Part shown: positions 1-44,973 of the stretch, piece after piece
Layout of the letters: every line of letters starts with the position of its first letter
How positions within the stretch are numbered: the first letter of the stretch is position 1
Source of the DNA: Saccoglossus kowalevskii
Taxonomy: Eukaryota; Hemichordata; Enteropneusta; Harrimaniidae
Reading direction: 5' to 3'
DNA: 46,698 nt
NCBI RefSeq assembly: GCF_000003605.2
Contig: NW_003141315.1
Location: 1-46,698, forward strand
The notes under the pieces: model-generated
Seen by the model: only the letters and a program-made list of their open reading frames with translations
Told to the model about the DNA's origin: nothing
The model's database searches: none
Program-made: the position numbers and the translations under genes

Positions 1-3000
1 CTCCGCAATTAGTTTCTGTATTTTTTTTAGTTTACTTAGGTGGTTTTATTAGTTCTGTATTGCATAAAATGCCATGTGTACTACGTTCTTACACTGCAAT
101 GTGTTGTCTATTTTTATTCCATTCTTACGTCTTAAGCCGTATACCCTGGGAGTATCAATGTCATCATTTTCTGCAGCTTGGAATTGATATGAATTATTAT
201 AAGATTTCATCTTGTCCACAATGTTGATGTACTGACCCCAGTATGCATCGATGTTAACATTAGCGCATAATTGAGACGAATTGCCGTCAGTTGTTGTTTT
301 GCATGCGATGTTGATGTACTGTCTCGCGTAAGCATTAATGTTCCATCAGTTCCAAATTTATATTGCTAACTATCAATTTATATCTTGTACATATTGTTTA
401 TGTGCATTAATGTCAATATTTCCATAAGCTCAAAATTGAGATGGTTACTATCTGTTTTGTATGCAATGTTGTAAAAAACAAACAATCCTTTCATAAATGT
501 ATCCAATAAGTGAAATACAATTATGGTATTTGTGCGTTCTAAATGTTTAAACGTAAATGTTGAGGTTCTTACAAAACGACACGGATCGATTGTGAAAGTT
601 ATAGGGAAACATTCAAATATAAATTAATAACATTGTTTCCCGCCATTGTTACGTCTTTAACAGATCACTAATTACACTATTAACGTTTGGAAAACTGAAT
701 GTCCTTGAAATATCATGTCTGTATTTAATTAAAATTACTAACATCAAATAATTGCTAATCTATGTATTCGATATTTAATGGAGAAAGGTCATTGAAAATT
801 TGTTAATCTACTGATGATGCATTGTATTGGCAGGTTCATAAATTTTTCCTTGTTCAAAATTGACAATATGAAGTGTAAGTGCAATTGCTGTAGGGTAGTA
901 CATTTCGTTCTTATTGTGAAGTGCTACAAGATTATTACCCCGACCAAAATTTCGGTAGTATACTGTTTCAATCAGATTCGTTAAGTATTCAACTTCATGT
1001 TTATGTTATCATTTTTGGTATGGCATTTTCAATTAAACATGTGCAGCTTTGGTCGTCGATTAATACCTGTTTTAAAATATGGGTAATTCAAAATAGTTTC
1101 AAACATTACATGAGCAATTTTAGACAGATAGATATTGAAAATGATCTAATAGATCTAAAAATGACATGCATGTAGATGAAATGAATAATTCCTCCTCTCT
1201 ACTCTAATTGTGACAATGGTGATTCCTAACAACCTCTAATGATTGTCAAAGTATGGGACACCAAGATAGTCTTTCATTACGGTTTCAAAATCCGAAAAAG
1301 TGAAATGTGTGCCCTATAGTAAAATATTACTAGCTGCAATGATACGTGAACATATGATAGTGGATTACAATCAGTATCCTACGTTTTCCCGTGTAAACTT
1401 TCTCAGAAGCTCAAAAACGACACGTATATTTACGATGGTTCTGTTCATAATGCTATATTTCGATCTTATATTCATCCCATACATTTACAGTAACATTAGC
1501 TATAATAACGTTGCTCATATGCAAGCATTGTATTATTCCTAGTACAGTTTTGAAAACCCTGATTACCCGGATAAATGATTGATATATGTTAACACCATTA
1601 ATTCACGTCTGCTCTCAAATCGAACCAATCGATTTGGTGACACATAGTCATACAACAATAACACAAATTCATGGGAATAGAGAAAGGTTGAGAGCGCAAA
1701 AAACTCAACTTCTTCAATATGACTGTTTCCAATATATTTGCTATGATTATTTGCTATAATGGGAAATATCATATCTCTCCTCCCCGTGTACAATCGTTGC
1801 AATAATACTGGTGTAGTTTGATTCCCGTGTTTACAAACTAGGTATATTAAATTATGTTAAGGTTTGTTTTTACTATAAGACATAAACAATAATGAGCAGT
1901 AGGGATTGGGTTGAGCTACTTATAGAAATTCCAGTCTGTTCTTACAGACGCGTCATTGGAATTGACAACATCCAGACAGACAGCAGAGGGTAACCCAACT
2001 TTAGAAGCAACATTTATAATGTTTAGTGGGTATGCGACCATCAGCGTCATGACGGCTACAGTGATAGAGCATACGCCTACTACTGGTATGTATACACATA
2101 TCATGAATATGTTTGGGTAATATATAAACTTAATATTAACACATATATGCGGTGAGTCCCTCCTTGATTCAGTTTTTTTTTAAAGTTAGTACACAGACAT
2201 ACAGTATACATGTATTATTGATAAGTTCACCAATTTCAAAATTGTTGATTGGTATAAGATTCAAGACTTTCTCTTCTCAGTTATACGACACTTTAGCGTA
2301 ACTTTTAATTTTGTAGCTAACAATGTGCTAAGACAAAGCATAAACGCATAAGCCACAAACTCAGGAACAGCTTTCAGTGCACTCCCTGGGACCATTCGAC
2401 GAGTTATTATTAATTATTCAGAAGCATTATTCTGTGACTTTCGATTAATACTAAATTGCACACCTTCATTAAAGCTGAACATATGAACATATCAGCAATG
2501 TTTTTTTTAACATTGCTGTTGACTATATTAATAATTATATACAAACATTGCTTATATCTTATTTTAATATAACAGAATGCTATAAGAAAATTCATGCGAC
2601 GCCTGGAGCATATTAATAAAGAATCATCGATACCAAATTGCGACAGTGTATGTGTATCTTGCAGACGAGTGTATTAATCTCGCAAGGTTATACAGTGGAG
2701 TAACTATTTTGACAAAGCGTGGTGCTTGGGTAATATTCAAGCTCCTTTCATGCTGAGAAAAACATCGGGCAGTTCACATGAAGTCTTTTTCACCAAAGAA
2801 GACATTGATGATACCATCACATTAGTAATGTTCTAAGTAAATTAATGTTCAGTTAACATTTGAGCAGTCGTTTCGAATTGCCCGCCATAATTTTTCTTCA
2901 AAAAATGGCTAAAAACAATGATAATCTAGCATTGAAAGGAAATTTGAACACTCATGTCTAGACTTTCTAATGTGTTGTTATAGCATTATTGGTATATGGA

Positions 3001-10432: not shown

Positions 10433-10776
10433 ATGTTGAAAATCGATCAGTACTTTGTTGCGTTTGTGATGCTATGGATTGGAATTTTAGCATTGACGTC
10501 TCATGGACAGACATGTAATAATACAGTGAGCGAGCAGTTGAACAACGTAGTATATATTCACGTCGCTAATCGTGGGGCACACATTCGAAGTACTAAAAGT
10601 GTTCAGCATCTTTGAGTGCAGTAAAATGTGTCAAGAACTCTCTAGATGTACAGAGAAGGACAAACCGATGTGAACTGAATTCTAAAGCAGCGTCCAGAAT
10701 CAACCAATTGATATACGATCCTGATATTAGCTATTTTGTGCGCCGCTGTGGGAACAGTTCAAAATCATTGATGTCA
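10433..10776 (+). pseudogene. PAN/apple-domain first exon relic, unit 2
   Basis: This starts like the intact unit 3 exon (MLKIDQYFVAF, a hydrophobic signal peptide, then TSHGQTCNN). Relative to that exon, an 8-bp deletion after VYIHVAN shifts the frame and brings a stop. A 14-bp deletion further on removes residues next to the central cysteines. The C-terminal part (RCELNSKAAS, NQLIYDPDISYFV) is recognisable in another frame. The splice donor GTAAGT of unit 3 has become GTTTGT. It once encoded a secreted PAN-domain module. It is now broken and belongs with the relic at 15,314-16,207. Confidence 0.85.
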
Positions 10777-14117: not shown

Positions 14118-14119
14118 TA

Positions 14120-14866
14120 CAGCGAGCGCAGGATATTTACATACACCTAATTCCAGCACCCGGTAGGTAATTGCCGAGAAACTTTGCCACATCTCCAAAC
14201 ACTTTCTTAGACGCTCCAACGACCGTTGTAGACGAAATAAAATTACATACACACTTACATGACAGTTAATCAAAACAACTGACTAGGGTTTCGATGGGTT
14301 AAACTATTACAACGAATTTTGTCTGAGATCTGAAGGATGTTTGAAACTGACGGTGTGAAGGTGAAACTAAGTAAAAGATTCCAGAGAAAGATTGACTTGG
14401 CGATGAATGTTCTGGCAAACTGGCAATGGGACCAGCCATTGTGCGAAAAAATTAACGGGACACCCACAACTGTATAATTATTAATATTGAAAACATCATA
14501 AGAAACTTCCAATCGAAAAATTGAGATTTACCATTTCTTATTAATTTCCAGTTTAATGTTAGTATTATATTTCTCTCAAGTTTTACACAGCAATGATTTT
14601 TGTATCTACAAAGCAATAGGTTTTCGTGATATTTTAATAATTTATACGTTTGAGCGAAATCGCATAATTTATGCTCACGATGTCTTGTTCAAAGGCATTC
14701 CGCGTCCGGTGTTTGATTAACTGTCACTCAGGCGTGTTTGTAACTTTATTGCGTCTACAACGGTCGTTGGAGTGTCTAGGGAAATGCCTGGGGATGTTGC
14801 AAAGTCCATCGGTAAGTGTCTAACGGGTGCGGGAGTTAGGTTTATGTACATATCTTGCGCCCGCTG
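14120..14866. mobile_element. TA-flanked inverted-repeat transposon/MITE, 152-bp TIRs
   Basis: The left arm 14,120-14,271 begins CAGCGAGCGCAGGATATT. The right arm 14,715-14,866 ends in TTGCGCCCGCTG. Read in reverse complement, the right arm aligns with the left over its whole 152 bp, including the shared core CTCCAACGACCGTTGTAGAC. Both ends are flanked by TA. Unit 1 keeps the empty site (GATGTTAACATTA at about 251-263), so the insertion at a TA is directly visible. A TA target and long inverted repeats fit a Tc1/mariner-type non-autonomous element. The 443-bp middle holds no transposase; its longest frames are about 80 codons and unrecognised. Confidence 0.88.
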
Positions 14867-15313
14867 TAACATTATCACATAATTGAGATAAATTGCTAAC
14901 ACTTGTTGTTTTGTACACAATGTTAATGTACTATGTCCTGTATGCATTAATATCCCATCAGTTCAAAGTTTATGTCGCTAACTATCAATTTTTATCTTGT
15001 ACATACTGTTGATGTACATTAATGTCAATATTTCTATAAGCTAAGAATTTATATGGTTAATATCTGTTTTTTATGCAATGTTGTAATTGTAAGCTTGATA
15101 TTTGCTATAATTATTTGCTATAATTGAAAATATCATGTCCTCCCTCCCCATATACAATCGTTGCAATAATACTGTGGTGTAGTTTGATTCCCGTGTTTAC
15201 AAACTTGGTATATTAAATTATTTTCCAGTTTGTTTTTATTATAAGGCATAAGCAATAATAAGCAGTGGGGATTGGGTTGAGCTACTGATAGAAATTCCAT
15301 TCTGTACTTGCAG

Positions 15314-16207
15314 ACGGGTCATTGAAATTGACAACATACAGACAGACAATAGAAGGTAACCCAACTTCAAAGGCAGCACTATAACATTTAGTGGGTATAC
15401 GAGCATCAGCGTCATGGCGGCTACAGTGATAGAGCATAAGCCGACTATTGGTAAGTATACACATATCATGGATATGGTTGGGTAATATATTAACATAATA
15501 TTAACACATAAATGCGATGAGTCCCTCCTTGATTCAGTTTGTTTAAAGTTAGTACATAGATATATTGTATACATGTATTTTTGATAAGTTCGTCAATTTC
15601 AAAATTGGTGATTGGTATAAGATTCAATCAAGGTGTTATATGTATTGACTTTCTCCTTTCAGTTATACGACACATTAGCGTGACTTTTAACTTTGTAGCT
15701 AGCGATGTGTTAACACAATGCATCAACCGGAAGCCACAAACTCAGGAACAGCTTTCAGTGCACTCCCTGGGACCATTCGACGAGTTATTATAAATTATTC
15801 AGAAGCATTATTTTGTGACTTTCAATTAATACTAAATTGCAAAACTTCACTAAAGTTGAACAATATTGTTGTTGACTATATTAATAATTATATACAATAT
15901 ATTAATAATTATATACAAACATTGGTTATATCTTATTTTAATATAACAGATTGCTATAGGAAGTACAAGCGACGCCTGGAGCATATTGATAAAAAATCAT
16001 CGATACCCAATTGCGACAGTGTGTGTGTTACTTGCAAAAGATTGTATTAACCTCCCAAGGTTGCAGTGGAGTAACTATTTTGACAAAGCCTGGGGCTTGG
16101 GTAATATTCCCGCTCCTTTCATGCTAAGAATAACATCGGAAAGTTCACACGATGTCTACTTCCCCATAGAAGACATTGATGATACCATCACATTAGTAAT
16201 GTTCTGA
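15314..16207 (+). pseudogene. Expansin-like gene relic, unit 2
   Basis: The linker exon relic 15,314-15,450 is 137 nt, one base shorter than in units 1 and 3, which shifts the frame. The first barrel exon relic 15,663-15,781 has a 1-bp deletion, loses about 17 bp covering the conserved FDACS segment, and stops at the deletion junction shared with unit 1. The barrel core exon is absent. The last exon 15,950-16,207 is fully open (86 codons). It reads IAIGSTSDAWSILI, HRYPIATV, LPRLQWSNYFDKAWG and APFMLRITS, the C-terminal domain of expansins, and ends DDTITLVMF. A short product from the last exon alone cannot be excluded, but an expansin cannot be made. Confidence 0.85.
15876..15920. repeat. 22-bp tandem duplication
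   Basis: The stretch TATATTAATAATTATATACA occurs twice in a row just before the last expansin exon of unit 2, and once in unit 1 (about 2,523-2,543). Confidence 0.8.
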
Positions 16208-19200
16208 GTAAAGTAATGTTCAGTTCCCAGTGTGATGTATCTGTCATTTAAGTTAATCTTTCTGGGGTTTACATGGCTGGATCTCTGACATAAACTATTT
16301 TGTTTGTGCTACAACAATAAAACAATTTGTAACATCTGAGCTATCGTGTCACATTGGCCGTTATAATTTGTTTCTTCAAAAAACGCTTGAAAATATAATT
16401 TGTTATAGCTACTGAACACATGAATCTGAAATTTTGATTTTAGCATCTATATGTACATGTTTAACATAGATCTACGTTTGAGAATTTTTTATGATTGGTC
16501 GCATGATTCGGTTAAGACCCTTCTCAACAGAAAGGAATTTCTTTCTGATGAGACATTTGTCTTATTGATTTCAAATTTGACATGCTGCCTACTTTAACCA
16601 TATTCCTTGAGAATGCCAAAAATGTATAATTTAATAATAATTTATAATATAACTTTATAGTTTTGTAGTTTATATCGGATCACGTATCATTCATGGCAAA
16701 TTGAAAGAACACGCACTAGTCTAGAATCAAAATAGAACATGTCACCACGAAGTAAAGAAAATTTATGCCGAGAAGATTTACAAATCAACATTTTAATTTT
16801 AATTACATGATTGGAATTACTTATACTGGTACATTTCTCTGAGATGATACTATAATTAATAGGAGTTTATATATTAGTTGTAGTATATTTATAGTTAAGG
16901 TTGTGTTTACAAACCCGCAATAACTTGCAATAGTATTTGATGAACATTATAATCGAATAAGTATAAGAAAATGGACAATCTTGTTGCCCAAATTCCATTT
17001 GATTCAAATATCGTAAGACACATGTTTAAGAGAGCAAAGGTTATTATCAAGCGTGATCATGAATAACACCAGCTTATATCGAAATAAGGTATTATATACA
17101 TGTGTTTTAATGTAGTTGCAGCTCGAAGCAAGGTATATTGATATTTAATGAAGTAATAATGAAGATCACCTTAATGTTAATGTTTACTAAAGCAGTTGAA
17201 GATTATTTCCTAGTTTTATATCTGTTTCATTAATGTGGGAGTTGCCATTGATTGCTGCAAATACAAATCTAGCGTCATTCCGTTCCCTGGTTCAGGGAAA
17301 CAACACCCATATAGACTTATGCGAGGCTAATTACCAGATTATGCCGAATGTGCTACCCATCTTTAACACCTAACTGTCACAACATTCAGAAAGATTTTCG
17401 ATGCATCACATTCCACCTTGTATTTATTATTTGTTTGACTGCATTCTGTTTTTTTTTCTGGTCATTGGTTTTCAAGACGGCCCATTCACACCTAATTTGG
17501 CTCAACAGAACAGACCTTTCCTACAGAGAAGGCGGCTAATTTGAGGGACTTTTGTTAAATTTCGCATGTCATTGTAAATACCTAGCATTCCCACGAATAG
17601 CGAGTTTCATCATGGGCAATTTAATAATATTAATGTTTGTTGCATTTATTTAAGTTATTCTTTTAATTCCTCTTGTTATTGGCTTTAACTTATTTTGACT
17701 ATTTTTGACGAAAGGATATGATGTGCAAAATTGTATTTTATCGAATTGTCATGATAAATGTGTCGACATACAAGACAAAACATGTTGACACAATGAGCGT
17801 TCATTTTTACCAACACTGGGTCACACTACGCGATGTAATGCCGTCTTACTATATTTACAGAGCATACGAACATGGTCAGCAATTTGTTCGCCAATTCTAA
17901 TAAAATAACAGGCGTCTAAATTGCAGTTTGTGACAAGAACATTGTCAGTTTCTGATTCGAAATGCACAGGATCTGTGTTCAATAAAAGAACGGAAATGCG
18001 TAATTACAAGTACACTTTGCAGTAAAAAGTGTCATTTTAATGTATTCATGTGAAAATAAATATCTTATATATATTCCCGTGAAAAAAACAATGAAAAAAA
18101 ATATTTTCAATGGCTCCTCAATCCATTATTTGGCACTTTCATCTATGTTATTATTTCTCTCATAGTTTATTATTATGTATGCATTCGAACATCCATAGAA
18201 ATATTGGAAAACCAACAGAGTACAATCGTTAAAGCAATATATCTTGATGTCAATAGATTTAATATCCACTCAGTGCCCAACGTAGCCGAACCGTAAACAC
18301 ACTTCACATGCGCTCAACACCACGCTTCAAATGCTCTTTATATATAATACATAGAGTTTCAGGTTTCAAAGCAACTGAGGTTGGTTAACGAGCAGCTGCT
18401 TATGACGTTGGTTTAGGTCAGTCCATTCTCTAATGAAAAGTAAAAATATAATTATCTACGTGTTACCGTCCTGGTGTAGTAAGATGTGTGACTGGAATGT
18501 CAAATTATGGTATTGACATGCATAATTTCAGAATCGCATGTAATACGATATGTTGCAGGTCGTGACTGTAACCATGGTAATCAATGCAGCGTGTCACATA
18601 TATTGTTAGTATGCGAAAAACCTTTGTATATAAATTCAGAAATGATACATTCGTTTTGAAACCACGAAATATTATACATTATCGAGTGCACGACATTCAA
18701 TATTGTAAGATACAGTTGTTATCATGAATTCCGTTTTCAAATTGTCTGAAATTATAACAAAAATACTGATTTCCTGAAAACAGAATTTAAGAGATTTCAA
18801 TACTCTTTCGAGATGCATCGCCATTAGTATCCAAATAGTCCTAATAAATGACGTTGGTCGCATTGTTTGCTTGTTTCCTGTAATTTTAAGCAGTCAATGA
18901 CACCGACGTTTTTCATTCACAGTGAACCATAGAAATATAATCAGTAAGCACGGATGCAAATGTATTGCGCAGAGTGAATTATCTGAAATTTATAATCTAA
19001 CCCAATACACAGATCGATCAAAGTGTGATGTAATAATTCTTTTTCTATAAAACATAATGTCAAAGTAGAAGTAGTAATAGTAACACCTACCAGACTATGC
19101 AGCGAAGTCTCTCTCACGGAAGAATCAGGAGTATTTACTCTCTTATTTCTAATAAATATTTAAAGTTTATTGTCACAGATCAATCAAAGTGTGATGTAAT

Positions 19201-22200
19201 AATTCTTTTTCTATTACATATAATATCAAAGTAGAAGTAGTAGTAGTAACACTTACCAGATTATGCAGCGATGTTTCTCATATGGTAGAATCGGGAGTTT
19301 TTTCTCTGTTATTTCTAATAAATATTTGAAGTTTATTGTCGACAATCACACATGTTATAAGAAATCACCAATGCTAATTTGATGTTGTTCAAATTATTAA
19401 ATTTTAAGTCTTTGCCACAATACATATGGTTTATCAAACTTTATATCCAGTGATGTTATAAATCTGCTACACGGATGAAGGCTTCAATATGCACTTGTAC
19501 TTATATTATGTTCACGGACTTGTATTTTTTTATTTGTGACCTTTAATCAATAATTTACGGCTGAAGGTTTATTTTTGCTACACAATATGTCTATATACAA
19601 TATGCCGTAGCAGTTCATATACGAGATTCTAGGGTTGAGTTAGTGAGATTACCAGAATTGCAAACTACTTTGACAGAATACATCACATATACATACTGCA
19701 CATGACGACGAGGCAAAATAATGATTAAAGTGACACATATACAAAGATGACTTGTTGCATCCGCCCACATGCTCATCTATACAACACGGCGAACAAGGTG
19801 ACAACATCTGCTATTTTAATCTCAATTTATATATTGCTAAAACAGATTATGCCTCGATTTATTCATCATTGGTATCATTAACTGTGTAGACTTGATGTTC
19901 GAATTATAATATGTTAACCCGACGTTCATTGTACATTGTCACACTTTTTTTTGCAATTTCCTGGCCGAATATTTTCCATTTATTTTGATTAACCTTTTGA
20001 GTTTTGTCCTTTGAGTTTAGCTAACAATTACGGCCATCTGATTTGTTTATTTCATTATCATTGGTGGTGTCTGTAATATAATCGTGTGAGTGGAGAATTG
20101 AAATTATGTGCAGTACATCGTCAACAATAATAACATGTCACATCATGTTTGCATTCCCTGTTTTGTGATATAGTCACTTGGGAGAATATAGTAATGTTAT
20201 AGTAATATCGAAATCCAATGTTCCCTCAGTGGGAGTGTTTTAAGGTAAGTGCAATTCAAACGTTTCACGTCGTATGTCGGTTTAATTAGAGGCCTTTTAT
20301 AAAAATGTACTAAAGCATTATTATACAGCAATGTTCAAACTCGTGCCTTTCTCAATACGTCACATTAAACGGTTATCGTACGTCCACTGTTTTGATGAAA
20401 TATCTATGTTTTACTAGCGTCGCTGGTATGTTATTTTTTTTTATTTTAGCTGATATAAATATTCAATTCTGAATGACAAGTATTTTAGCGTAATTATAAA
20501 AAATATATATAAACATAAAATACCAATAATAAGACAAGTCGCTCCTGCACAAGTTGTAACTCTTATACATCGCCCGAAATGTACAATAATGCACACACTG
20601 TTTCGCAATTCTAAACCAACGTCATTCACATAAAATATCTTAAACTAAATCCGTATTTTGCCGTACTATAACAACATTATCGAATTTTCCACGAAGTAAT
20701 AATGCATTTTCGGTTGATAATATGGCAATAATAATATGCTATTACACCAAGATGTTTGTATAAATACTGGAAAGTTGACAAATTCTGAGCAGGAAGAAAT
20801 TTATTTTAGGTTATTCTGTTTTGTTTTAACTCCCTAAATAATGTATCATCTATAAATACGTATGTTAGTTATTTTAAACGAGGTAACATTATACAGGTTC
20901 AGGATCAAAGAAATTTGGACAATGGCATATTATAAGCTAAAGGCAAATCGTGAGTGTACAATGAACACGGGTTAGCATCGTTGCAGGCTAAGGAAATTGA
21001 ACAGTATATGACTAGATGATTGCAATATCCATCAATCAAATAGACGCAATCGCTCGAGTTTTTTACCTGTCGAGTGTCGATGTTCTACTAATATACCATA
21101 TTTATTTATAGGTCCTTGGTTACTGAAAAGATGAGAGCAGTGCGTATAACTGCAGTGACATCTCTCAGATTGACACTTGAGAATATGAGGCCTCATACGT
21201 GCGTAGTACTAGTTTCTTGCGGAATTTGTAATTTCACCTATTCCCATCAACATCATAATAATAACGTCTATGGCGTTGTGATTTAAATTTACAAATTAAA
21301 TGTTATGTGTTAATGTACACAACCACAATGTCTGTCAGTTTCTGTATTAATCGGTGTTATATATAGATTTGAAACGTAAATCAAAATCACGGACAAAATC
21401 CGATGTTATGTGCTTATTCGCGATATGTATGTTTTTAACCAGTAGTTCCACAATTAGAATTATACATAAGCTTTATTGAAACTCTTTTAAATAATCAACA
21501 ACAGCGTAACTCAGCATTACTTTTCTACATCATACGTGACGACATAGAATCCGCGTACGCTGTGCAATAATTAACTAATTAATGTATTTGAAATCCAATC
21601 AAAAAAGTATCACGTTATCTGTTTATCGCGATGGCATCTAAAACACTAAAGCTAGAATACTAAATCTTTCTTCCATAAATATTTGCTAGATTATATGGTT
21701 GCAATTTCAGTCTGTGTGAACCAACTTGAATGTGGTTAATTTTAGAGAATTATATTATTTGTTCATAATCATGAGACCCTTCAGATTTTGTTGAGAAGAA
21801 TACAGACACAATACTGCATTGCCCGCTTAAATACAGATCCAATTTTTCTCATAGTCGCTTCGGATGTACAAAATACCAATGGTTCATTTATCAGTGAAAC
21901 GGTGGACGCAATGACGGGAGAAAATGAAACTGTTATGGTAAAAAACAGGTTTTGTTGATGTCTCGCTCTGTCTCACTGTCTCGCTCTAAGCGAGATTTCG
22001 GCAGCCATTTGTATCTAAGGTTTATTAATGCCTTAATAAAACACTATATGTGTTAACAGAACAATACTGAATATTTATCAATATCTAGAACGTGTTCTGT
22101 CAGTTTCAGGCATTTTTTGATCGGGAATGATTGACAGAGTACAGCAGAAACAAGGGTTCAAAATGCAATTCACAACAAAGAATTGCTGACATAAGTAGTA

Positions 22201-27042: not shown

Positions 27043-27405
27043 ATGTTGAAAATCGATCAATTCTTTGTTGCGTTTGTGATGCTACGGATTGTAATTATAA
27101 CATCGACGTCACACGGACAAACATGTCACAACACAGTGAGCGAGCAGTTAAACAACGCAGTATATATCCACGTCGCTAATCACCATTTCATCGGACACAC
27201 ATTCAATGTGGTAAAAGTGTTCAGTATCTTTGAGTGCAGTAGCATGTGTCAAGAATCGTCTAGATGTACATCGTACAATTTCCAGAGAAGGACAAGTCGA
27301 TGTGAACTGAATTCTAAAGCGGCATCCACTATCAACCAATTGATATATAATCCTGATATTAGCTATTTTGTGCTCTGTGCGAACAGTTCAAACTCATTGA
27401 TGTCG
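27043..27405 (+). CDS. First exon: signal peptide plus PAN/apple domain (unit 3)
   Basis: This is the 121-codon start of a secreted protein. Residues 1-26 form a signal peptide with hydrophobic core FFVAFVMLRIVII and likely cleavage near SHGQ. The rest fits a PAN/apple module: VYIHVAN, FECSSMCQESSRCTSYNF, SRCELN, then NPDISYFVLC, with the usual pattern of paired cysteines. PAN domains bind proteins or sugars outside the cell. The ATG is the first in frame after the conserved upstream block. The exon ends at TCG before GTAAGT, phase 0. Unit 2 has a broken copy at 10,433. It probably belongs to the expansin-like gene downstream, but the phases (0 here, 1 at 33,873) require at least one unseen exon between them. 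It could instead be a small separate gene. Confidence 0.82.
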
Positions 27406-30400
27406 GTAAGTATAATGAGTTTTGTTTTGCAGTTATCATTATTGATTGATAACTAACTAAGCTAAGTAATATGTTGATGGAAAATGGTAGTGACTAAATT
27501 CTGGCAAAATATTTGGTTTTAGACGCTTGTATGATTTAAGAGATATACATAATGTTTTCTCACTGACATCAATATTAGTTATCATTTGTATCTTTGTTGT
27601 GTTCTCTGAATTCATTCATTTTTTCAACATCTTTACCTTTGTCTATCATTTGACATGAGCTAACCATTTATAAAGATATGACACATATCAAATTTCACAA
27701 CGAGTGTATTGATCGTTAGGTACTGGATACACATTTTCCGGCCAAGGTCGACATCGAAAGAAAAGCAAAAGCTGTATCCAGCCCGAGAAGGTTTTATGAT
27801 ATACTTTCCACGCCCAAATTCAAATGAATATAATCGTTTCAAGCTCCATGTGTTTTATTTTTTTTAAATTAATAATATTATTTATTCAAACTGAAACTGA
27901 AAGTGCGAATTGATAATTTTGTGCATAGCACTATAACAAGACGCGTGAGAGTTTAAACATTCAGTCTCAATCATTGCAAATGTTTTCTATGCTTTTAATG
28001 CGGTTACATTAATGCTATAAATATAAACCTCTACATTCTAAAGAAAGGTTTGGGTAATGTGCAATCCTTCAATTAGAGAGAATTATGTATCATGAAATAT
28101 GCGATGATTGTATATTTAGAGAGAAATGTTATACTACAAATTGTTGCCCTAGGAAGAACAGCATATCCATATATAATATACATAATATGATAATATAATC
28201 TTTAGAATCCATACTACAGGTAACTGCGGCATATAACTTCCAATTACAACTCTGTAAATTGATGGATATTAGGAGACATTTGTGAAGCCGTCGTTAATTC
28301 GTCGTTACTAGTGTCTTTATTATTGGGATAAGAATCCAGCGGCTCACCCAGTCTCGTTTAATTTAATATAATTGGTTCACCTTATTATGTGCTTATGTAT
28401 ACAACTACTGTATTAGTTCATTTCATTTTGTGTATCATGATAAATTTATATGAAATGTTCTGGTTGCGCATTTACTGTTTTTTTTTTCACAGTAAATGTG
28501 TTGTTTTTCAATAGTAAATAATAAAATATTTTAATATCTAAGATTTAAAACCGACACATTCGTTTATTTACTCGATCTGTTTAATGTGCGAAGATTCATT
28601 TTCTGCAATCGCTACAACATTCCCGAATTATTCATAGCATTATTTCAAGGGTTTAAAGGGGGTAACTACCTAAATTTGGATATTAACAGGTCAATGTGTA
28701 TTATGTGCAAACTATATTGAAAACAAATGTGTGTTGCCACTATCACTGATAACATTTACAATAATAAAATTTCACGTTCATGCAATCAATCCGGCTTCTG
28801 CTCTAATCGTATTGCGGGACAGTAATCTGTAAAACAAAGATATACTTGATGTATAGCTTCCTGTATGTATCATATTCCTTGATGCAGTTGACGTATTTAT
28901 AGCGTGTATAGACGGTAATCATAATATCCATCCATGTTACAAGACACGCCTACATGTAGCATGTGTTTCAACGATCTGAAACACGAGGTCAATAAATTGG
29001 ATATCATGGATTTAAACAAACGTCAGAAAAGTTATTTGTGTGAGCGTTCTACAAGCTTCCTCCGACGGAGTTTAATCTCATTAGCAGCATTCGATGCCGT
29101 ATGTGCGTCACAATATGTTGTGTTCTTTATCAAACCTGAATGAGAAATTATTTTCTTTCAATGTGAGGTTGTTCAAGCTAAATACTGAATTCAATCACAA
29201 GGATTTGCTTAATAAGAATATTTAGATACAATAAGTATGAGTGCGACCGCCGTTTCTCATAAATTCGCTCTGGCATTACCGTGTGTAATACATACGCGTC
29301 ACATATTCAGTCATTCAATATTTGTTTTGTCTTATTAACTGGCACAGTACTGTAAATTGATCGTAGGCATCAATTGATTCTAAAGTGTCAATCTAATAGT
29401 TATTGTTATATTATAAGAAAGAAGAACATGTATTTGGTAATTGACTATGCAACGCAAAGCTGTTGCTGTCATGAAACATTTATCGCATTGCTAAACTAAA
29501 AAAAGTAGGAAATGTATGCCTTAATTCACACTGGAAGTTTATTACTATTATGTGCGTTCGATGTAGTTATCAACAGATGTATGCCGATTATTTGCAGTAC
29601 CATGTTAAACGTTTATAATACAACAATGCCCATGACAACAATATCTGCATATCGACGAATTTCATTAGATGGCGGTGGTGGTTACGTAGCGCATGCTCGA
29701 ATGTGGTGTAAAGAAACATTGTAATGTACAAGCGTTGTATAAACTGTCGCACTGTGACGTCATATGTTTACATTTTGACAACAATCATTGCAATGTCAAT
29801 AGCAAATGTCTGTCACCAGACACAAACACGTATATTTAATACCAAGTTCAACGAACAGCTGCACGTCGACCACTGTCTATTAAAAATAACAAAATAACTG
29901 ATTTCATCTTTATACCAATATCATGATACTTAAAAAAATGTATAAAATGTTTATCAAATGATGGCTCTAATATTGACTAAAAAATACAGTTTGGTGCTGC
30001 CATGTTTGATTACAAGTATGCTCTCCACGTATTTGTATGACAGTTTTATTAGACCCCCTAACAAAAAAGCTGTTTGGCTGTAATCTTGCTATCGATTTTT
30101 ACTGTAAACAGTGATTAACTAGAAAGTACTCTGGGAGTCGAAACCTTGAACACAGATTCAAAACAGTGAATTTCACTAATAGCCGAACTTATTAAATGTC
30201 TCCATAGCAACTCGATCTAGGTGTCCAATAAATGTAATCTCTTGATTTATGTGTGAAAGAAAATCCCTCCTCTAAACATCAAAAAAATGCGCCAAAAACT
30301 GTATTAGTCCGGCAGTGATTAGTCATTTAAGGATGAGACTCATGCTCGTTGACACTTTGTTTCAAACCTAGGTTTTTTTCAACTGAAAATCAAGTTTTAC

Positions 30401-30929
30401 CTACATGTTATTTATTGTTGTGGGCTCTGTGATTACAGTTTCTGAATAACAAATATGTTTTGAATAACACCATGTTTTTGTTTGGTTTGTTTCCAAAAAA
30501 ATATAGACTTTCAGGATTGTTGATATTTTTGTGCGATATCATGTAATATCTCAGATTAAATGAATTTGTTCTGTATAGATGCATGTGGGAAATTTTTAGG
30601 GAAATCAGTTTTTATAATTAGTACTGATCAGAAAAGACCCTTTTACATCACCTATATGTGTGTCCAAATAAATATGATATACAAAACCTAGTACTGACTC
30701 AAGGGAACCACCAACTCTGCCAATGTGTATCTGGCTGGCCTTTTTTTATAAATGACAATTCCTGCTGCAAATTTCACGACCTATAGCTTTTTGAGTTATA
30801 GATGGAAACTCATTTTTAAAAATGCCATTTTCATGGAAACCAGACCACCAACTCAACTAAAATGTAAAGGAATAGCCTTTTCACCACGGCCAACTTTTTT
30901 TTGCAAAATTGTATGAGTATCTATTCAAA

Positions 30930-31420
30930 ACTTGTTTGATTACGAGCTATACATGACAAATAATTCCTGGATAGATGCTATCTTTAAAACCGTACCCACA
31001 TTTCTACCAGCACCGAGTTTAAACTGCGAAAACTGCTTTGCCAAAAGTTCGCCATGTTCGAGTCGGACTAAACAAACATGTTTTATCGTTACCGAGGGGC
31101 CATCGCCGCACGAACGAGAATCGTGGTCGTTGCTGACAGTGGCGGCGGCATAGGGGGGGGGGCACTCTCGAAATGTCTGCGTGTGATTTGAATACGCCCA
31201 TCCACTGCGTTGAAGAGTCAATCTAAAGGTATTGTGATGCCAGAGTTTACAACAGCCCACGAAGAACAGACATTGACCCCCTGTGTTCATGTGGCTGCTG
31301 TTGAAACCGAAATCGTATCCTGTTATCGAGAAGAACAGAATTGAGCTCTCTTTCTGTGTTTTTTTCTTGTGCGACTCTTTTACTGTTGTGAATTTAGAAT
31401 CGGACACTCGTAGCACGTTA
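30930..31420. other. CpG- and GC-richer island, unidentified
   Basis: About 490 bp stand out from the AT-rich surroundings by many CG dinucleotides (for example CCATCGCCGCACGAACGAGAA) and a run of G at 31,155. Both strands stay open for long: + 30,932-31,153 (73 codons) and - 30,940-31,416 (158 codons). Neither translation matches a family I know. The minus strand contains GAACATGGCGAACTTTTGGC, which looks like a start context but is closed after 23 codons. It lies in an insert absent from unit 2. It could be a captured 5' gene end, a short interspersed element or a promoter-like island. Confidence 0.4.
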
Positions 31421-32456
31421 ATATTGTGATATTTTATTGTGTTATGATAGGTTAATTATCGTGTAATTAAACCAATTCTCATGTACCAGGGATCGTAACG
31501 TTCGCAACCTTTTACCGAACAAAGATACACACAGATCTAGAATTGTGTCAACCTCTTGTCTCGGTGCTTTCTGTGGGAACTACCTGACATTCCTTTATTT
31601 CCTTTCTCAAATCATCGCACCTCACATGGAAGTTCAAGGGTTCGAGGCGTGGCCTCCACACATTCTATTCATATAGCCAATCACATAAAGTATTTAACAC
31701 GCCATAATATATTTGAATAATTGTCCCCTATATTGGGAAATAACTGCTACATTTAAACCGTTAATTTATACTCATGGGCGCCACAACATTCCATAGTTGA
31801 CATTTATATCCGCTATTTGTTCCACTCACTGATCCCACCAACCCCCAATACGCGGTATGAACCTGATCATGACAGACTATGAGAAGGTGTGGATTTATAT
31901 CGTCCAGATCTTCCATCCGGTACCAATTATCCAGATGTAATCAGTGAATGTCGTTATAATTGCGGGCTCATATAAATACATGGAAATATAAATCATGACA
32001 GTGTTCTGGGGCTCTAGTTTTATTATAATTTGGCAGTTTGTGACGGAATACACCGAAATACACTATGACGATATATTGTATCAAGTATATTAATAACACC
32101 AAAGCTCACATGAAAGTTCAGTGTTTCGCATGATGTATCATTCTCGTTTTCTATGCATTTAATGCCACATATTCGACTAAATATCAGCTAATATAAATCC
32201 TTTCATTTATTTATATATCTTATATATTTTTTTTTTCTATTTGACAAGTCCCCCCCCCTCCGTGGTATAAATGCCTGTATGCTCCTCACCACACCAGATT
32301 AGCTAGTCCGAAATTTGAATAAGATTTCTCTGGACGGAAGATTTGCACCAGAGCTCAAATTCGGTTACCATGTCCTCCATTGTGCGTAAGACGAATTATC
32401 TTGCGGTGGACTTGGTTTCACATATATAAGCTCGTGACAAACATAAAGTTATTTTA

Positions 32457-32642
32457 AGGGCGGTAGTCATCGCGCATTGCATGTGCGACATTTGTGTTGA
32501 TAAACATTGATTTTCCACAATTCAGTGCGCGTTTCTAATGGGCTTCACTTGTACAAATTGGTGTGCACAACGGTTAAAATCACCATCTTTGTTGATATGA
32601 GACCCACATCTCGCGCATGCGCAACGCGAGGACTACCGCCCT
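32457..32642. mobile_element. PIF/Harbinger-like MITE, 186 bp
   Basis: The left end is AGGGCGGTAGTCATCGCG and the right end is CGCGAGGACTACCGCCCT. Allowing a few mismatches, they are reverse complements over about 35 bp, including the CGCATGCGC-like inner part. The element is flanked on both sides by TTA (32,454-32,456 and 32,643-32,645), the 3-bp target duplication typical of PIF/Harbinger elements. It is too short to code for anything and sits in the unit 3-specific part of the intron. Confidence 0.82.
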
Positions 32643-33872
32643 TTAGGTTGTTAAAAAGAATCATTCAATTGACTGACATATAGGATTGAGTGCCTGATAA
32701 CATCGTTTGATTTTTTCCCGCTCGATGATACTCAAAAACTACCACAAGGTACTCATATTTTACAACTCGTTTATTAAGTTAAATAAAACATCGGGTAAAA
32801 TTCTAAGGTATATAACAGATTATTTTGTTACCTCTTTTAGATACTTATGTTGGACAACTTATGTGATAAACTAGAATATGTATGCGATATACAAGAGGAA
32901 ATAGGTAAGACACAATGCACGTAATATTGTATTATAATTTAGTAATGGAAATACCAACTAATTTGTTTACAATGTATATATATATTAAATACAGATAAAA
33001 TAAAATAACTGTCAGCAATGTAATCAGATAGTTGCGCCCTCAATGGCAGCGGTGGTGATTTGGTTTTGCTCGGAGGTAATCACCCAAATTATAAGATTTA
33101 ATTGTTAGAGGCATGATTTGTGATTATTTAGGTTATAATCTCTTGTTTAGTTAGTAGGTCAAACTATGTTGAATTGGACATCAATATATTATTGTTAGTT
33201 TATCGGCAATTTTGTTTCTGTATTATTTTTTTCAGTTATTATAGATGATGTTCATTATGCAGTGTATAAAATGTCGCGTGTAATACGGTTTAAATATTCA
33301 CTGCAAGGTCTTGTCTATTCCAAGTATGCATCAATGTTAACATTTCCATTAGCCAAGGATGAACTACTACAACCTTTGTATTGCGAATAATGTTCCTCGC
33401 AGCCATAAATATCATTATTCTCATCAGTTCAACATTCGTAGTGCTATAATAAACATTCATTAATATTGTGACGTACTTTAATATCATGTTAATATTAACC
33501 TCTGAATTGAGATGGCATACTATCTGCTTTCATCTTGTATGCAATGTCTTAATTGTTCTTCAAATTGTTTTCTCAATGTTGATGTTTTGTCTCTAGTTCT
33601 TATCAGTGTCAATATTTCAATAAGCTCAGAAATACATACAAATACAATCTTCTTCAAAACAGAAAATTCTTTCACAAACGTATCAAATAGTTGCAATACA
33701 AATCTTCATAAACCTTTGAACATAAATATTGAGGTTCTTTGGTAATGAAACCAATCGATTATGAAAGTATTCGAAACATCTATTTATGTACAGTAGTGAC
33801 ACGATAAGGCTGCTGTGTTATTACATTCTTATATTTAGACATGAACTTCACCTTGTTGTTCTGTTCTTATAG

Positions 33873-33938
33873 ACCAGACGCCAGAAATTACTACGGAAAA
33901 AATAGCTAGTGAATATGCAATCGATGGCACTACGACGG
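33873..33938 (+). CDS. Thr-rich linker exon 1
   Basis: 66 nt, phase 1-1, between TTCTTATAG and GTAAAA. It reads QTPEITTEKIA then DGTTTG. Such small symmetric exons usually code O-glycosylated spacers between extracellular domains. It is absent from units 1 and 2. Confidence 0.6.
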
Positions 33939-36900
33939 GTAAAAGTGTTACTGAATCAGAGCTTGTGACAACTGCAGATGTGTATATGCATGGACAGATT
34001 TCGTTTTACTAACTGGTTCAACATTAATCCCAAAATTCAATAAGCTGTCAAGGAGTGAATTATAAATGCGTTAATAGTTTCCTAAAAATGGAGCAAGTGT
34101 TGGATGTCCAGTTGGGTCGAGGTTATATGACGGAGCTTCCCCCTCAATGTTACAAACGCTGACGTTCACAAAAACAAACTTTAAAGATGCAAAGGACGAA
34201 TGCTAATGAATGCAAAACAGAAACTCTTGAAATTTCATGTCTGAGTTTAATTCAATTACTAATATAGTAGTAATATTACTTTTTGTCAATGTATTTAAAA
34301 TAAACGCCAAGCGAGGGTATTTTGTGGCAAGTATAAAAGTTCTGTGTGAACTGTGTGCCCTGTAGTGACATATTATTGACTTCAAGGATATGATTGTACA
34401 CACACATAATGGATTACAGTCAGTATCCTAGTTTTCCATCTTCTCTCAAATCAAATCGAACCGAAGCGATTTCGTTGCATATAATCATACAACAATAACA
34501 ATAGACGCATTCATTCTTTTGTTTACAATACACATATTGTTGCTGTTCTTTGTAAAGGTTTTTCTCACAAAGCCGGTCGAATTTGAAAGTACTAAATTAA
34601 AACATACAATTATACGTTAACATCAATGATCAGTTATGAAAAGGTTGCGTTAATGAGATGAATTCAATTTTGTTTTTCCAGAGCAGTCACCGGGTATGAC
34701 AACAGAGACGACATCAACGGAAAACCCAACTGCAGACGCATCAACGTTAAATGAATATTCGACATTTGACGTTACTACAGGTAACTACGTTTGTACATAT
34801 AATTGACAGATTCGAATGCATTGCCAAAATGACAATGCTAAATTATTGCATTTTTATGTAATATAATGAGGAGAATTTTGATTCCTTGTTATAAACTTAG
34901 GCTCATCAATGTTTGATAGATCAAATTGTGAGTAGGCAAGTTAACTTTAGGGTAGTATTTACATACTATTGTATACACTAGTATTTACATACATAATGTG
35001 ACTTAAAACAGAATAAAAACAAGCGGATAACACTTTTTCAGTAGCATTTGGCCTTGCGTGGATTTTGTCATGTGGACAATGCTCACAATTTCTGCTGTTC
35101 GAAAATTTGTAGATGAAACAAATGTAAGAACATATTTGCTTACAACTCTTGCAAGGAGGATTTGGGTTATTTTTAACACGATCTAATTACTACTTTAAGT
35201 CAATAAACTTTTCTTTTCTAAGCCCAACAGCAAATAGTGTGTTGGTGCCATGCAGATACTTTTCAAAACTCCAAATACAGTGTAGTTTGATTCCCGTGTT
35301 TACAAACATTGGAATAAAAAACTATTTTCCGGTTTCTGTTTACTATAAGACATAAACAATAATGAGCATTCGGGATTTAGTCGAGCTGCTGATCGAAATT
35401 CCATTCTGTTCTTACAGACGGGTCATTGGAATTGACAACATACAGCGAGACAATAGAAGGTAACCCAACTTCAGACGCAACATTTATAACGTTTAGTGGG
35501 TATGTAACCATCGGCGTTATGACGGCTACAGTAATAGAGCATACGCCGACTACTAGTATGTATACATATATTATTAATAGGTTTTATTTTAACAAGTTTG
35601 GGTAATATATATACTTAATACTAACACGTAATTGCGGTGAGTTCCTCCGTGATATACAGGCAATACAAACATATTGTATTCATGTATTTTTAGTTTTACG
35701 CAATGATATTCCAAAAATACAAATTCGTGCATTATACATAAATTTGATAATGCTTTGATAGGTTTATCAATTTCAAAATTGTTGATTGGTAGAAGATTCG
35801 ATTATTGATTTTCGCCTCTCAGTTATACGACACTTTAGCGTAATTTTTAACTTTGTAGCTAACGATGTGTTAACACAATGCATGAAAACAGAAGCGACAA
35901 TCTCAGGAACAGCTTCCAGGGCACTGGCGTTCGATGCCTGTTCCTTGGGGCCATTCGACTCGCTTGCCAACGTGACAGGAATTGGGGATTACACAGCAGA
36001 CGTAAGTTTCTACGATATTTTTCTTCGCACATTGCACAATACGCGCATGCGACTTGTAGTAGTATACGTAATTACAATATCTCTTATTTGTATAAATCAT
36101 CAAATGTATGGATACATTCAAATATAAGCAGTTGATTATATTGAACATGAACTTATTAACCTAATAGTTTTCGTGATTTAACTACTAGTGTTATACTGTA
36201 AATCTGGTCATGGGTCATTTATATTATCAATGAAATGATTGTTTCTGTGTTTTAGACTGTAGCATTTCAGAGAAAATGTTTATAATCGAGTTGCGTTTGG
36301 GTAAATAATAACCGCTATTTAAAAAATTATATACGATTTCCAGATGTGTGGAGCATGTTTGGAAGTCACTGGAACAAATGGAGTTTGTCTGAATGTTATG
36401 GTAGCTGACAGCTGTGGTAATTGTGGTTCCACTGATCTGCTTTTGAGTGAAACAGCTTACAACGCTCTACTCGGGACTGTGCTTGATATTAATGGTTATA
36501 TTGATGTATTCTGGCGCCCTGTACCGTGTGTAGTCACAGGCTACATGATGTTTCAGGTATTGTATTTCGTGCACTCATTGCAACATTTTAACTATCTAAA
36601 TGTACCACTGGAAGATTACGTTTGTTCTCACAGAACTCGAACTGTGGCACTTCAATCTGACTATTTCGGCAAGAAGGTTCATGCTGGTTCGTCTGAAACA
36701 TCATTTCGACCATGCCTACCAAAATTAGTCGGTAATACATAAACGTGAGATAAGGTAATCCCATCGTACTAGAATGCTCCTTAGACGCAAACAGTTGTTG
36801 AGATATCGGTTGGAGCAAGAGAGCCTAACCAACATTGAATAGATATGTGAAACACAGATGATCCGATCGGAGAGAAAGAGACCGCCAGTTGAGAAGAAAA

Positions 36901-37505
36901 AATCAAAACGCAAGGCTCTCGCGCTTTCAATGGAATCTCATCGGCCATTTTCTATCTACGGGTTATCAGCATTGTATTGTTAGATGGTTAGATGATTCAT
37001 GAATAAATTTTCCGAAGAACGGTTTACGCACTCTCGTACGTTTTTACAAAGCCATCACAAAAACACATGAACGAAGTCCATCGAGTTTATTATTAATTAT
37101 TCTGTGACTTTCAATTAAAACTAAATTGCCAAAATTCACTAAATTTGAACATAACAGCATTGTTTCGTGTAATTATTTTGTCGGCTATCGATAATTAATA
37201 ATATATACAAACATATTTTTTTTATATTATAGTTTTCTATAGGAAGTACAAGCGACGCCTGGAGCCTATTGATAAAATATCATCGATACCCAATTGCGGC
37301 AGTGTGTGTGTATCTTGCAAAAGATTGTATTAACCTCCCAAGGTTACAGTGGAGTAACTATTTCGACAAAGCTTGGGGCTTGGGTAATATTCCAGCTCCT
37401 TTCATGCTAAGAATAACATCGGACAGTTCACACGATGTCTACTTCACCATAGAAGACATTGATGATTCTGTCATAATAGAAAGTGATGTTCAGTTCCCTG
37501 TGTGA
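33873..37505 (+). CDS. Expansin-like protein gene, intact copy (linkers + DPBB + C-terminal domain)
   Basis: Six consecutive exons in matching phase: 33,873-33,938 (1-1), 34,682-34,780 (1-1), 35,418-35,555 (1-1), 35,859-36,001 (1-0, or from 35,823), 36,344-36,556 (0-0) and 37,233-37,505 (0-stop). All borders are AG/GT. The first three code Thr/Ser-rich spacers, the next two the double-psi beta-barrel, and the last the expansin carbohydrate-binding domain. Expansins loosen cellulose or other wall polysaccharides without hydrolysis. A secreted animal version could act on algal or microbial cell walls, which is inference. With the PAN exon at 27,043 the whole protein would be signal peptide, PAN, linkers, expansin. 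The usual barrel motif LDLS reads LLLS here, so the key acid may be missing. Confidence 0.75.
34682..34780 (+). CDS. Thr-rich linker exon 2
   Basis: 99 nt, phase 1-1, between TTTTTCCAG and GTAACT. It reads QSPGMTTETTSTENPTADAS and ends FDVTTG, very rich in Thr and Ser. It is absent from units 1 and 2, whose sequence skips this part. Confidence 0.7.
35418..35555 (+). CDS. Thr-rich linker exon 3
   Basis: 138 nt, phase 1-1, between TTCTTACAG and GTATGT. It reads GSLELTTYSETIEGNPTSDA, then TFSGYVTIGVMTATVIEHTP. It shares the ENPT/GNPTSDA pattern with linker exon 2, suggesting the linker exons arose from each other. Open copy in unit 1 (1,948), frameshifted copy in unit 2 (15,314). Confidence 0.7.
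35859..36001 (+). CDS. Expansin DPBB exon, N-terminal part
   Basis: It reads TEATISGTASRALAFDACS, then LGPFDSLANVTGIGDYTAD, ending before GTAAGT at phase 0. The ISGTA start and ACS..P......DYT order fit the first strands of the expansin barrel. Two in-phase acceptors are possible, CTCTCAG before 35,823 or TTTGTAG before 35,859. I prefer the second because the extra 12 residues of the first are hydrophobic and unlike a linker. Confidence 0.72.
36344..36556 (+). CDS. Expansin DPBB core exon
   Basis: 71 codons, phase 0-0, after ATTTCCAG and before GTATTG. It reads MCGACLEVTGTNGVCLNVMV, ADSCGNCGSTDLLLSETAYN, and FWRPVPCVVTGYM near the end. CGACLEV(T), VMVADSC..C, the LS..A(Y/F) helix and WRPVPC are the hallmark order of microbial and animal expansin-like barrels. 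In the family the LDLS aspartate is essential for wall loosening; here that position is Leu (TDLLLS), with an Asp two residues earlier. Units 1 and 2 have lost this exon completely. Confidence 0.9.
37233..37505 (+). CDS. Expansin C-terminal (carbohydrate-binding) domain exon
   Basis: 91 codons with stop. The acceptor TTATATTATAG gives phase 0 and reads FSIGSTSDAWSLLI, YHRYPIAAVCVYL, INLPRLQWSNYFDKAWG, APFMLRITSDSSHDVYFTI. This follows the CBM63-like domain of expansins: GS..W..I...HRYPI, then L.R..W.NYF, then P..LRITS. The Trp after the SD loop and the W/Y of WSNYF are likely sugar-stacking residues. A deletion relative to units 1 and 2 replaced their ending TITLVMF by SVIIESDVQFPV. Confidence 0.88.
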   Translation, partial: FSIGSTSDAWSLLIKYHRYPIAAVCVYLAKDCINLPRLQWSNYFDKAWGLGNIPAPFMLRITSDSSHDVYFTIEDIDDSVIIESDVQFPV

Positions 37506-42159: not shown

Positions 42160-44742
42160 AATAAACTTGAATGAAGAATGCCAATTTCGTGAGATTTAAG
42201 TGTTTTGCAGTCATATCGCCTATTGTGTGTTGTCATGGTCTATATTGTTATGTAATGTAAGGACAATGGACTAACGAACCTGATTTATGTACATATCACA
42301 GTGGAGTACATAACATGGTCAATTAATAACATAATATTGATGAAAGAGAAAAAGAACTACTAAATAATGATAAAATGATATTGTGATAATAAAATAAAAG
42401 TATACATAAATATGTATAATAATAATACCCATATACTCACATGATGTAATAATTCAATAAAATATGAATATGATCAATGTTTGATTATACGTATGTATGA
42501 ACTGGTCTATGTAATAATCTATCGTAACACTTATTTATATATTGTTATACTCAGTCAGAGGATACGTTTAGGTATCTTTATATGTTCACATTTATTGACA
42601 ATTTGAAACCAATATATTTTATTATAACATCGATAAATCCCGAATTAAACTTTACAGGAATGAGTATTGTTCGTATATGGAGAAAAAAAATAATTATGCA
42701 AATAAGTTTGAATATTCATACTTCTTATAGATGTTACCATGACGTCAAAGTCAAAATGTGAACGAAAACAGTGTTATTGCACATTGATACCACCTGCTCT
42801 TTTGTGTGTCTTTTAATGTATTCACCTTACGTGTGCTCAACATATACAGATTAATTGTGCATACATAGTGGTAGAGTATTATTGGAAAATGTTGACAAAA
42901 TTCACAACGAACAGAACTAAAGTATTTGTTGTTACTATTGTATTATCTACCATCAGTCAAAAAGTGTTCGATAGTAATATCATATAATATAAACTGTTGT
43001 TTAATAGGAAATGCGTTTAAGCAACTTGAAGGAAATGCATACTATGCTTAATATTATGATATTACATGATGATACTGATATCAAAGCATATTTGATTCCA
43101 ATATATCTAATATAATGTAATTCATCTATCCATTAAGTGCGTTGAGCATCTATTGAATAAATAGTATGATATGTATTAAACATAATTGTTATCCATCGTT
43201 AAATATTTTATGTGGAAAAACTTTTACGCGCTTCATGGCTTATATGCCATTCAAATTATAATTATGTATTTTTTTATATTTTCACCCACAACAAATGGAT
43301 ATAAAAAACTTTTACTTTGATAATTATCAATTAATAAATTAATGAATTCGTCGGACCAATAAAGCCACGATATATGATAATATAGATGTCACGTAAGAAC
43401 TTAAGCGCGTACGCTTCGAACTCATACTCATTCGTGTTAAGACCAGACTTGTATTATTACTTGTTTCGCGAACCCGCCGAAAGAACAGAAGCCGAACATT
43501 AAAAAAAATTAAATTTTATTTCAGCGTAATTTCTCGCGCTCGCCGACTTGTAAGCGAAAAAATGCTAAAAAATATTATTTTTATCTTTAATCCAAGTTTC
43601 ATTTTTGTGGGAGTATCATGATCAAAGTACCGAAGTCTTGCGCAGATGAGAAACAAGGTTATACATAGAATAACATTTTATTTAATTTCTTCTCTCCGAC
43701 CAATAATCTCACCAATTTTTTTGAGAATCACACAAATTTAATGCGAAAAAAGAATTAATTTAATTTGTTCCGCTCTCCTCAAAAAAAATGCCTTGTAAAA
43801 ACTCGTGAAACAATTAATAAAACAGTCTGGCCTAACTATATTGAAAATCTCTGAACTTGTTTTACCCGATCTTAGTAAACAAAAGGTAAGTTTTTAAAAA
43901 TATTGACACTCGAATAAAATAGTGGCATTTTCCTCCCGTTCTCACCCCTTCTCCCTCTTCTCCCACTAGAAACACACTATGCGTTAGTGAGATATTCCTA
44001 GCTCAGAATACCGCTGGCTTAGTTTATTGGTGCGTTTTAAATTAACGAGATGTTCAATATTTGTACATAACGAGACAACAAGCCAATGCTGAAGCATTGT
44101 TATCACCCGGAAACTATATATAGATAGCATTTACATTGTTAATATTTCTCATTATAGTTGTTGAATTATTAATCGCCACTTAACAGCTAATCATTAATGT
44201 TCTAAGTGTTATCATATCTCAAGTTCAACTTTATGCGACATTGACCAGCGATATCGTCACTTCCACTGCCCCTTTAGAACTATGTATAACGTTTTAATTG
44301 GCGCATCCATGTTAATTTCCAGTAAACATATACTGTAGTTTTTATATGTAGTAAACTACTCCGCAGAGTCATCATTTAAGAAGTGTGCCTTTGTTGAAGA
44401 ATGCTATTGTTCGTATATTTATAAACGTTTCTGTTTGTTAAGCTACGCTCGACAAGCTAAATAAAACATATATCGTTAAACACAGAAATTAATGATTTAT
44501 ATATGTGGCTGTAAACTTGTTTTATTTTATATTTGTAAGAAAAAAAGTATGTTTCACATCGTTAAATATTTCATTTGGAAAAGCATTTACGCGCTGTAGG
44601 CTTTAGAAGTCATTCGATTTATGATCTATTATAATGTTATTATTTATTATCTGAAAAGAATGGACACACTAACATCGATAGTTTTTATAGTATTAACAAT
44701 TGACACTTCTTTGCTTGCCGCGGCATTACACGTTACGGTGCA
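42160..44742. other. AT-rich spacer between unit 3 and the DEG/ENaC gene
   Basis: No homology to the units and no gene seen. Two related stretches, 43,196-43,265 and 44,559-44,625, share TCGTTAAATATTT and TTTACGCGCT and mark an old short duplication. A pyrimidine-rich tract ending in CCCACTAG (43,928-43,970) looks like a splice acceptor and could belong to a 5' untranslated exon of the downstream gene. The promoter is not identifiable. Confidence 0.5.
43196..44625. repeat. Pair of short direct repeats about 1.36 kb apart
   Basis: The copies span 43,196-43,265 and 44,559-44,625. Shared words are TCGTTAAATATTT, TGGAAAA, TTTACGCGCT and GGCTT, with differences between. Only the two ends of this interval are the repeat; the middle is unrelated. 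Confidence 0.6.
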
Positions 44743-44973
44743 ATGTCGGAACCGAATAGTTACGTTGAAAGATCTGAAGTGAAAACCTTAAATGATATAA
44801 CCAAAGACTTTGGCAATTCCACATCGGCTCACGGAATTTCTAAAATTGTCGATGCAACAAATGTTCGTTCAAGAGTCTGTTGGCTGGCAATTGTATTAGC
44901 GTCAACGCTGGTATTCACTGTACAAGGGAGTCTTCTTTTGATGCAGTATTTCGAGTTCAATGTTAATTTCAAG
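44743..44973 (+). CDS. DEG/ENaC exon 1: N-terminus, HG motif and TM1
   Basis: 77 codons from ATGTCGGAACC to AAG before GTAGGT. Residues about 24-34 hold [11 protein letters not shown], the conserved motif before TM1. The Arg-rich SRVCW segment and hydrophobic helix of about 20 residues follow, then [11 protein letters not shown] leads outside. Further upstream exons could exist, but the N-terminal length is normal for the family. Confidence 0.9.

Follow-up and report, generated by a model that had tools for sequence, protein, structure and literature searches.

A predicted acorn worm gene joining a PAN domain and Thr-rich linkers to an expansin with a substituted key aspartate

Expansins are wall-loosening proteins known chiefly from plants and microbes, and the PAN domain is a sugar- or protein-binding module. 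A 46,698-nucleotide stretch of DNA from the hemichordate Saccoglossus kowalevskii (contig NW_003141315.1; hereafter the window) carries exons of both kinds, which raises the question of whether they form a single intact animal gene and what its product might do. The original prediction placed a signal peptide and PAN exon, three symmetric Thr-rich exons, two DPBB exons and an expansin C-terminal exon in one orientation, and each of these exons is present where it was placed, within the third of three tandem units.

All of the exons lie on the forward strand. Exon 1 (27043..27405) supplies the start codon, a signal peptide and a PAN/apple domain with six cysteines, and ends in phase 0 at a GTAAGT donor. 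The three Thr-rich linker exons, each of phase 1-1, are T1 (exon 3, 33873..33938), T2 (exon 4, 34682..34780) and T3 (exon 5, 35418..35555), with combined Thr, Ser and Pro contents of 36%, 48% and 39%, respectively. The first part of the expansin DPBB is encoded by D1 (exon 6, 35859..36001, phase 1 to 0) and the remainder, CGAC...VPC, by D2 (exon 7, 36344..36556, phase 0-0). Exon C (exon 8, 37233..37505) encodes the CBM63-like expansin C-terminal domain and ends with the stop codon. T2 matches T3 at 72% identity over 86 columns that include the acceptor (E 8.8e-6), and thus looks like a diverged exon duplicate of T3 in which the acceptor site was duplicated along with the coding sequence.

Because the PAN exon ends in phase 0 and T1 begins in phase 1, a further exon is needed between them, as the original prediction had reasoned from the same mismatch. 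Without it, the summed exon length leaves a remainder of 2 modulo 3 and the frame stays open. A newly predicted exon 2, here called X (32841..32904; ILMLDNLCDKLEYVCDIQEEI), runs from phase 0 to phase 1, encodes two cysteines and gives the lacking frame step. With X added, the eight exons yield a single frame of 452 amino acids with zero internal stops and GT-AG borders at all seven introns. Of the 153 open candidates between PAN and T1 that would lead from phase 0 to phase 1, X ranks first, with a score of 8.1 against 1.2 for the runner-up, and 0 of 266 candidates in a reverse-complement control score as high. Unit 2 retains a relic of X (13477-13504) in which the first 28 bases match at 86% and the acceptor is kept; beyond these bases the alignment is gapped and the donor is gone. 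Splice sites were scored with generic weights that rate several other sites of this gene low (among them the T3 donor, -0.2, and the D2 acceptor, -3.3), so a weaker genuine exon in the gap might be missed. We regard X as a strong prediction, short of proof. Intron 1 of the model spans 5.4 kb, the remaining six 0.3-1 kb, and additional exons may lie inside this first intron. An extra exon considered at 36634, between D2 and C, was rejected because, on reading by eye, the frame it would have to use is interrupted by a stop. The first A[AT]TAAA motif downstream of the stop codon lies at 38319, and the 800 bases that follow the stop codon contain none. Taken together, the eight exons look like one intact animal gene, predicted from DNA, with a secreted product.

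Does the PAN exon in fact belong to the exons that follow it? Each half lacks an end that the other supplies, which favours a joined gene: a start codon and a signal peptide are found in the PAN exon, which closes with a strong donor, and the expansin exons have a stop and no start. The alternative is a PAN-only secreted protein beside a separate expansin gene that begins at a first exon of its own, and several features of the gap would suit it. The PAN and expansin exons stand 5.4 kb apart, 13 A[AT]TAAA motifs fall between the PAN exon and T1, read-through of the PAN donor yields a frame of ~137 amino acids, and an alternative signal-peptide exon occurs at 29512, although its donor is weak (0.8). 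This value is the highest for any signal-peptide exon in the gap that could act as an alternative first exon; five such exons with a donor of at least 0 are in phase 1 and none in phase 0, and among ATG-started candidates of 40-300 bases none in phase 1 reaches a donor of 4 or more; with weak donors only, these first exons were rejected as the beginning of a separate gene. By comparison, the PAN donor scores 5.0 and that of X 4.6, and X leads its ranking by a wide margin. Identity between units 3 and 2 falls directly past the PAN donor, to 22/35, from 300/341 in the PAN exon and 499/580 upstream of it; the exon itself is hardly more conserved than its upstream sequence (0.88 versus 0.86). We accordingly consider two separate genes distinctly unlikely. 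The link between PAN and expansin had been drawn from repeated synteny, which in tandem units cannot by itself assign a PAN exon to the following rather than the preceding expansin; frame closure and the complementary halves instead support the predicted joined PAN, Thr-rich and expansin gene.

Profile searches of the spliced protein, suggested as a check by the original prediction, recover both ends of this arrangement, with a qualification on the expansin side. Pfam PAN_1 matches residues 41-109 (E 9.1e-11; 41.9 bits against a gathering cut-off of 21.4). In the same scan, run at E up to 10 with filters that drop most matches above ~0.1, PAN_1 and PAN_4 are the only families returned, with no expansin family and no CBM1. 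The NCBIfam profile NF041144 (expansin_EXLX1) aligns to the spliced expansin part over profile positions 14-194 of 194 (E 1.1e-21), and since its scores of 74.2 and 77 bits lie under the curated cut-off of 100, we file the protein as expansin-derived and not as an EXLX1 member. Expansins in the PDB are matched at E 6e-12 to 6e-7, namely 7wvr (6.1e-12), 9ms5, 9ms4 and 2bh0, and the expansin alignments cross the D1/D2 and D2/C junctions with no gaps at the joins.

Six microbial expansin sequences, of which three are partial, were also combined into a profile and searched against the 1,564 window ORFs of at least 20 amino acids. The profile ranks D2 first (E 6.6e-14), then the C copy of unit 2 (7e-6) and, third, exon C itself (8e-4), with the fourth ORF at 0.45; a reversed control gives a best E of 0.42. 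At 76.6 bits, the score of the spliced product is higher than those of D2 (48.2) and C (15.4) summed, which supports the exon junctions. The order of DPBB followed by CBM63 is present, both domains being recognised by sequence and the CBM63 exon also by predicted fold (exon C alone, CBM63-type, in a model built on 5 sequences).

The relatives of solved structure that the sequence search recovers come from microbes, as would be expected if the expansin had entered the assembly by contamination or misassembly. We consider that explanation extremely unlikely. Three introns interrupt or flank the expansin exons, these exons continue the reading phase of the PAN and Thr-rich exons before them and recur across three units, and identity to microbial expansins is only 26-33%. 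Pattern stretches in viral contigs (1 and 37) include no relative, and 3 of the 49 in bacterial genomes are relatives (L001-L003), too few for a phylogeny.

The wider window is likewise an animal setting, as the PAN-expansin gene shares it with exons for ASC and LDLa domains, and ASC channels are animal genes. An ASC N-terminal exon (44704-44973, forward strand; E 1.3e-7, phase 0 at its end) is followed, at most 1.6 kb on, by two phase 1-1 LDLa exons (46082-46504, forward strand; E 1.1e-11 and 1e-7). These exons may belong to a single channel that carries inserted LDLa domains or to two genes, cut off at the end of the window. Among ten other ORFs chosen by eye from lists of 70 and 51, Pfam places only the ASC and two LDLa domains above cut-off, and Rfam returns no match.

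The original prediction further held that the exon order is repeated as relics in unit 2, and this stands in part. Unit 2 carries, on the forward strand, a PAN exon relic with a broken frame and an altered donor (10433..10776) and relics of T3, a truncated D1 and C (15314..16235); the D2 exon is missing. Unit 1 shows the same T3, truncated D1 and C relics (1948..2828, forward strand), again with D2 missing. T1 and T2 have no match longer than 17 bases in either unit. The PAN relic is found in unit 2 only; since the first bases of the window match unit 2 downstream of this relic, a unit 1 counterpart would fall outside the window. Units 1 and 2 have D1 deletions in common, both are without D2, and they are closer to each other than to unit 3 in upstream, intron and D1 segments. 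T3 and C break that pattern: T3 is matched at 118/137 between units 2 and 1 and at 121/138 between units 3 and 1, and C at 253/273 between units 3 and 2 and at 246/286 between units 2 and 1. The simplest reading of these comparisons would be one decay event followed by duplication to give units 1 and 2, which leaves C unexplained; for the close likeness of the unit 2 C relic to that of unit 3 we propose gene conversion or late decay. Against microbial expansins, the unit 2 relic of C (15950-16235) outscores the intact exon C (37233-37505), with 22.1 versus 15.4 bits. Unit 2 also contains a 162-bp inverted repeat (81%; 14113-14274 and 14712-14873), and 19008-19348 comprises two tandem copies of a 166-bp unit; both are possibly mobile-element remains.

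With relics as its neighbours, unit 3 might itself be a decaying copy. Its eight exons are free of stops, frameshifts and splice-site losses, in contrast to the several lesions borne by units 1 and 2, and in the PAN exon units 3 and 2 differ at 9 first, 10 second and 22 third codon positions, a third-position excess. There, 18 of 41 differences are synonymous (p 0.005; 0.016 under strong transition bias). Across all compared exons the count for units 3 and 2 is 35 of 103 (p 0.02; 0.08 under strong transition bias), and for units 3 and 1 it is 24 of 89, with no selection signal. The signal overall is thus modest, which leaves some room for decay, yet with intact exons beside broken neighbours we judge a decaying unit 3 to be very unlikely.

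Closer examination of individual residues highlights what sets this intact expansin apart from its microbial relatives. In microbial expansin-related proteins Asp82 is described as strictly conserved, and the D82A substitution abolishes the activity of BsEXLX1 (PMC9888185). By alignment, the equivalent position in exon 7 is Leu (codon CTT, 36440-36442), and Asp occupies this site in 6/6 microbial comparators; PDB 4js7, which has Asn there and is titled a D78N mutant, was left out of this count. Other elements are retained. The Thr of EATISG in D1 aligns with ATFY/GTFY of L001-L003 and preserves the Thr12-equivalent, at a site covered in 3/6 comparators, and the VxD motif ahead of the Cys pair retains its Asp, as it does in 6/6 comparators. 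W125/W126 are replaced by Asp/Ala with a Trp one place on, and Y157 by Trp given one placed gap; with its aromatic platform altered in this way, polysaccharide binding by the expansin part itself is uncertain. The protein thus resembles the microbial EXLX expansins (BsEXLX1/YoaJ, 2bh0; Talaromyces, 7wvr; Streptomyces, 9ms5) in its DPBB and CBM63 order and its Thr12-equivalent, and has the CGAC Cys pattern in common with 7wvr and L001. It differs from them in its 26-33% identity, the Asp82 to Leu change, the altered aromatic platform, its introns and the attached PAN and Thr-rich linkers.

As a possible role, the original prediction suggested the handling of algal or microbial cell walls. Loss of an Asp that is essential in BsEXLX1 disfavours plain wall loosening and favours binding. 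A working expansin that loosens algal or microbial walls, or chitin, for the animal would need the neighbouring Asp (D322) or another residue in place of Asp82, and an Asp two places ahead of the lost position could serve as a stand-in. DPBB and CBM63 are both matched, the Thr12-equivalent and VxD Asp are retained, and a fungal expansin is described as acting on cellulose and also on chitin (PMC4372547). Against these points stand the inactivity of BsEXLX1 without Asp82 and the Leu at a site where every comparator has Asp, and we consider an active loosener unlikely.

On balance, we lean towards one intact gene whose secreted product, with PAN, a Thr-rich spacer and an expansin module, acts as a polysaccharide docker or cross-linker, a lectin or adhesin, and not as a loosener. 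Spliced into a single mRNA, the exons would encode, in order, a signal peptide, the PAN/apple domain, a short two-Cys segment, a Thr-rich spacer of ~100 amino acids and a microbial-type two-domain expansin. The spacer, probably O-glycosylated, would keep the two heads apart. The PAN domain would bind a glycoprotein or glycan, and the expansin module would lie along a beta-glucan-type chain such as cellulose, chitin or another wall polysaccharide, where Leu at the Asp82 site would turn it to docking on, or cross-linking of, wall or matrix polysaccharide. Its targets may be food particles or microbes, or else matrix of the animal itself.

A protein comparable in working is the oomycete CBEL, which joins PAN/apple to a polysaccharide-binding module across a Pro/Thr-rich hinge, is non-catalytic, and is described as binding cellulose and Gal/GalNAc glycoproteins (PMC3532174). 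CBEL has CBM1 in place of an expansin, and its CBM1-PAN units are repeated (PMC3532174). The Thr-rich hinge is thus a point of likeness and the binding module a point of difference. To our knowledge, there is no reason to expect shared ancestry of the two proteins outside PAN.

Animal expansins are already in print. 'Expansin-YoaJ' of Exaiptasia pallida (Aipgene19685; log2 fold change of 2.12 in the pedal disc) is described with a classical signal peptide, barwin-like and pollen-allergen domains and, as a further extracellular domain, an invertebrate chitin-binding domain rather than PAN (PMC6626399); our comparison is with that description. Expansins of plant-parasitic nematodes are reported to be parasitism effectors that probably came from bacteria, and a DPBB-only protein of the whitefly Bemisia to be plant-derived and without CBM63; the passages on these expansin-related animal proteins make no mention of PAN (PMC11800479). 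In the open-access literature searched we found no animal PAN-expansin, and the joining predicted here from DNA would be a variant not met there. In the egg fluid of Kellet's whelk, an Expansin-YoaJ transcript is listed as bacterial, with host or microbe assigned through the best Swiss-Prot match (PMC10913743), an assignment by which a host expansin could likewise be labelled bacterial.

We tentatively suggest, as an idea that may well prove wrong, that an animal lineage recast an acquired or inherited expansin as a two-headed extracellular lectin or adhesin, with PAN as one head and an expansin deprived of its essential Asp as the other, a 'pseudo-expansin' class with a mucin-like spacer lengthened through exon duplication. 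If true, binding by the expansin fold would be separable from its mechanical activity, animals would make extracellular binders from a wall protein, and transcripts labelled 'bacterial expansin' in animal-associated samples may in fact represent host genes.
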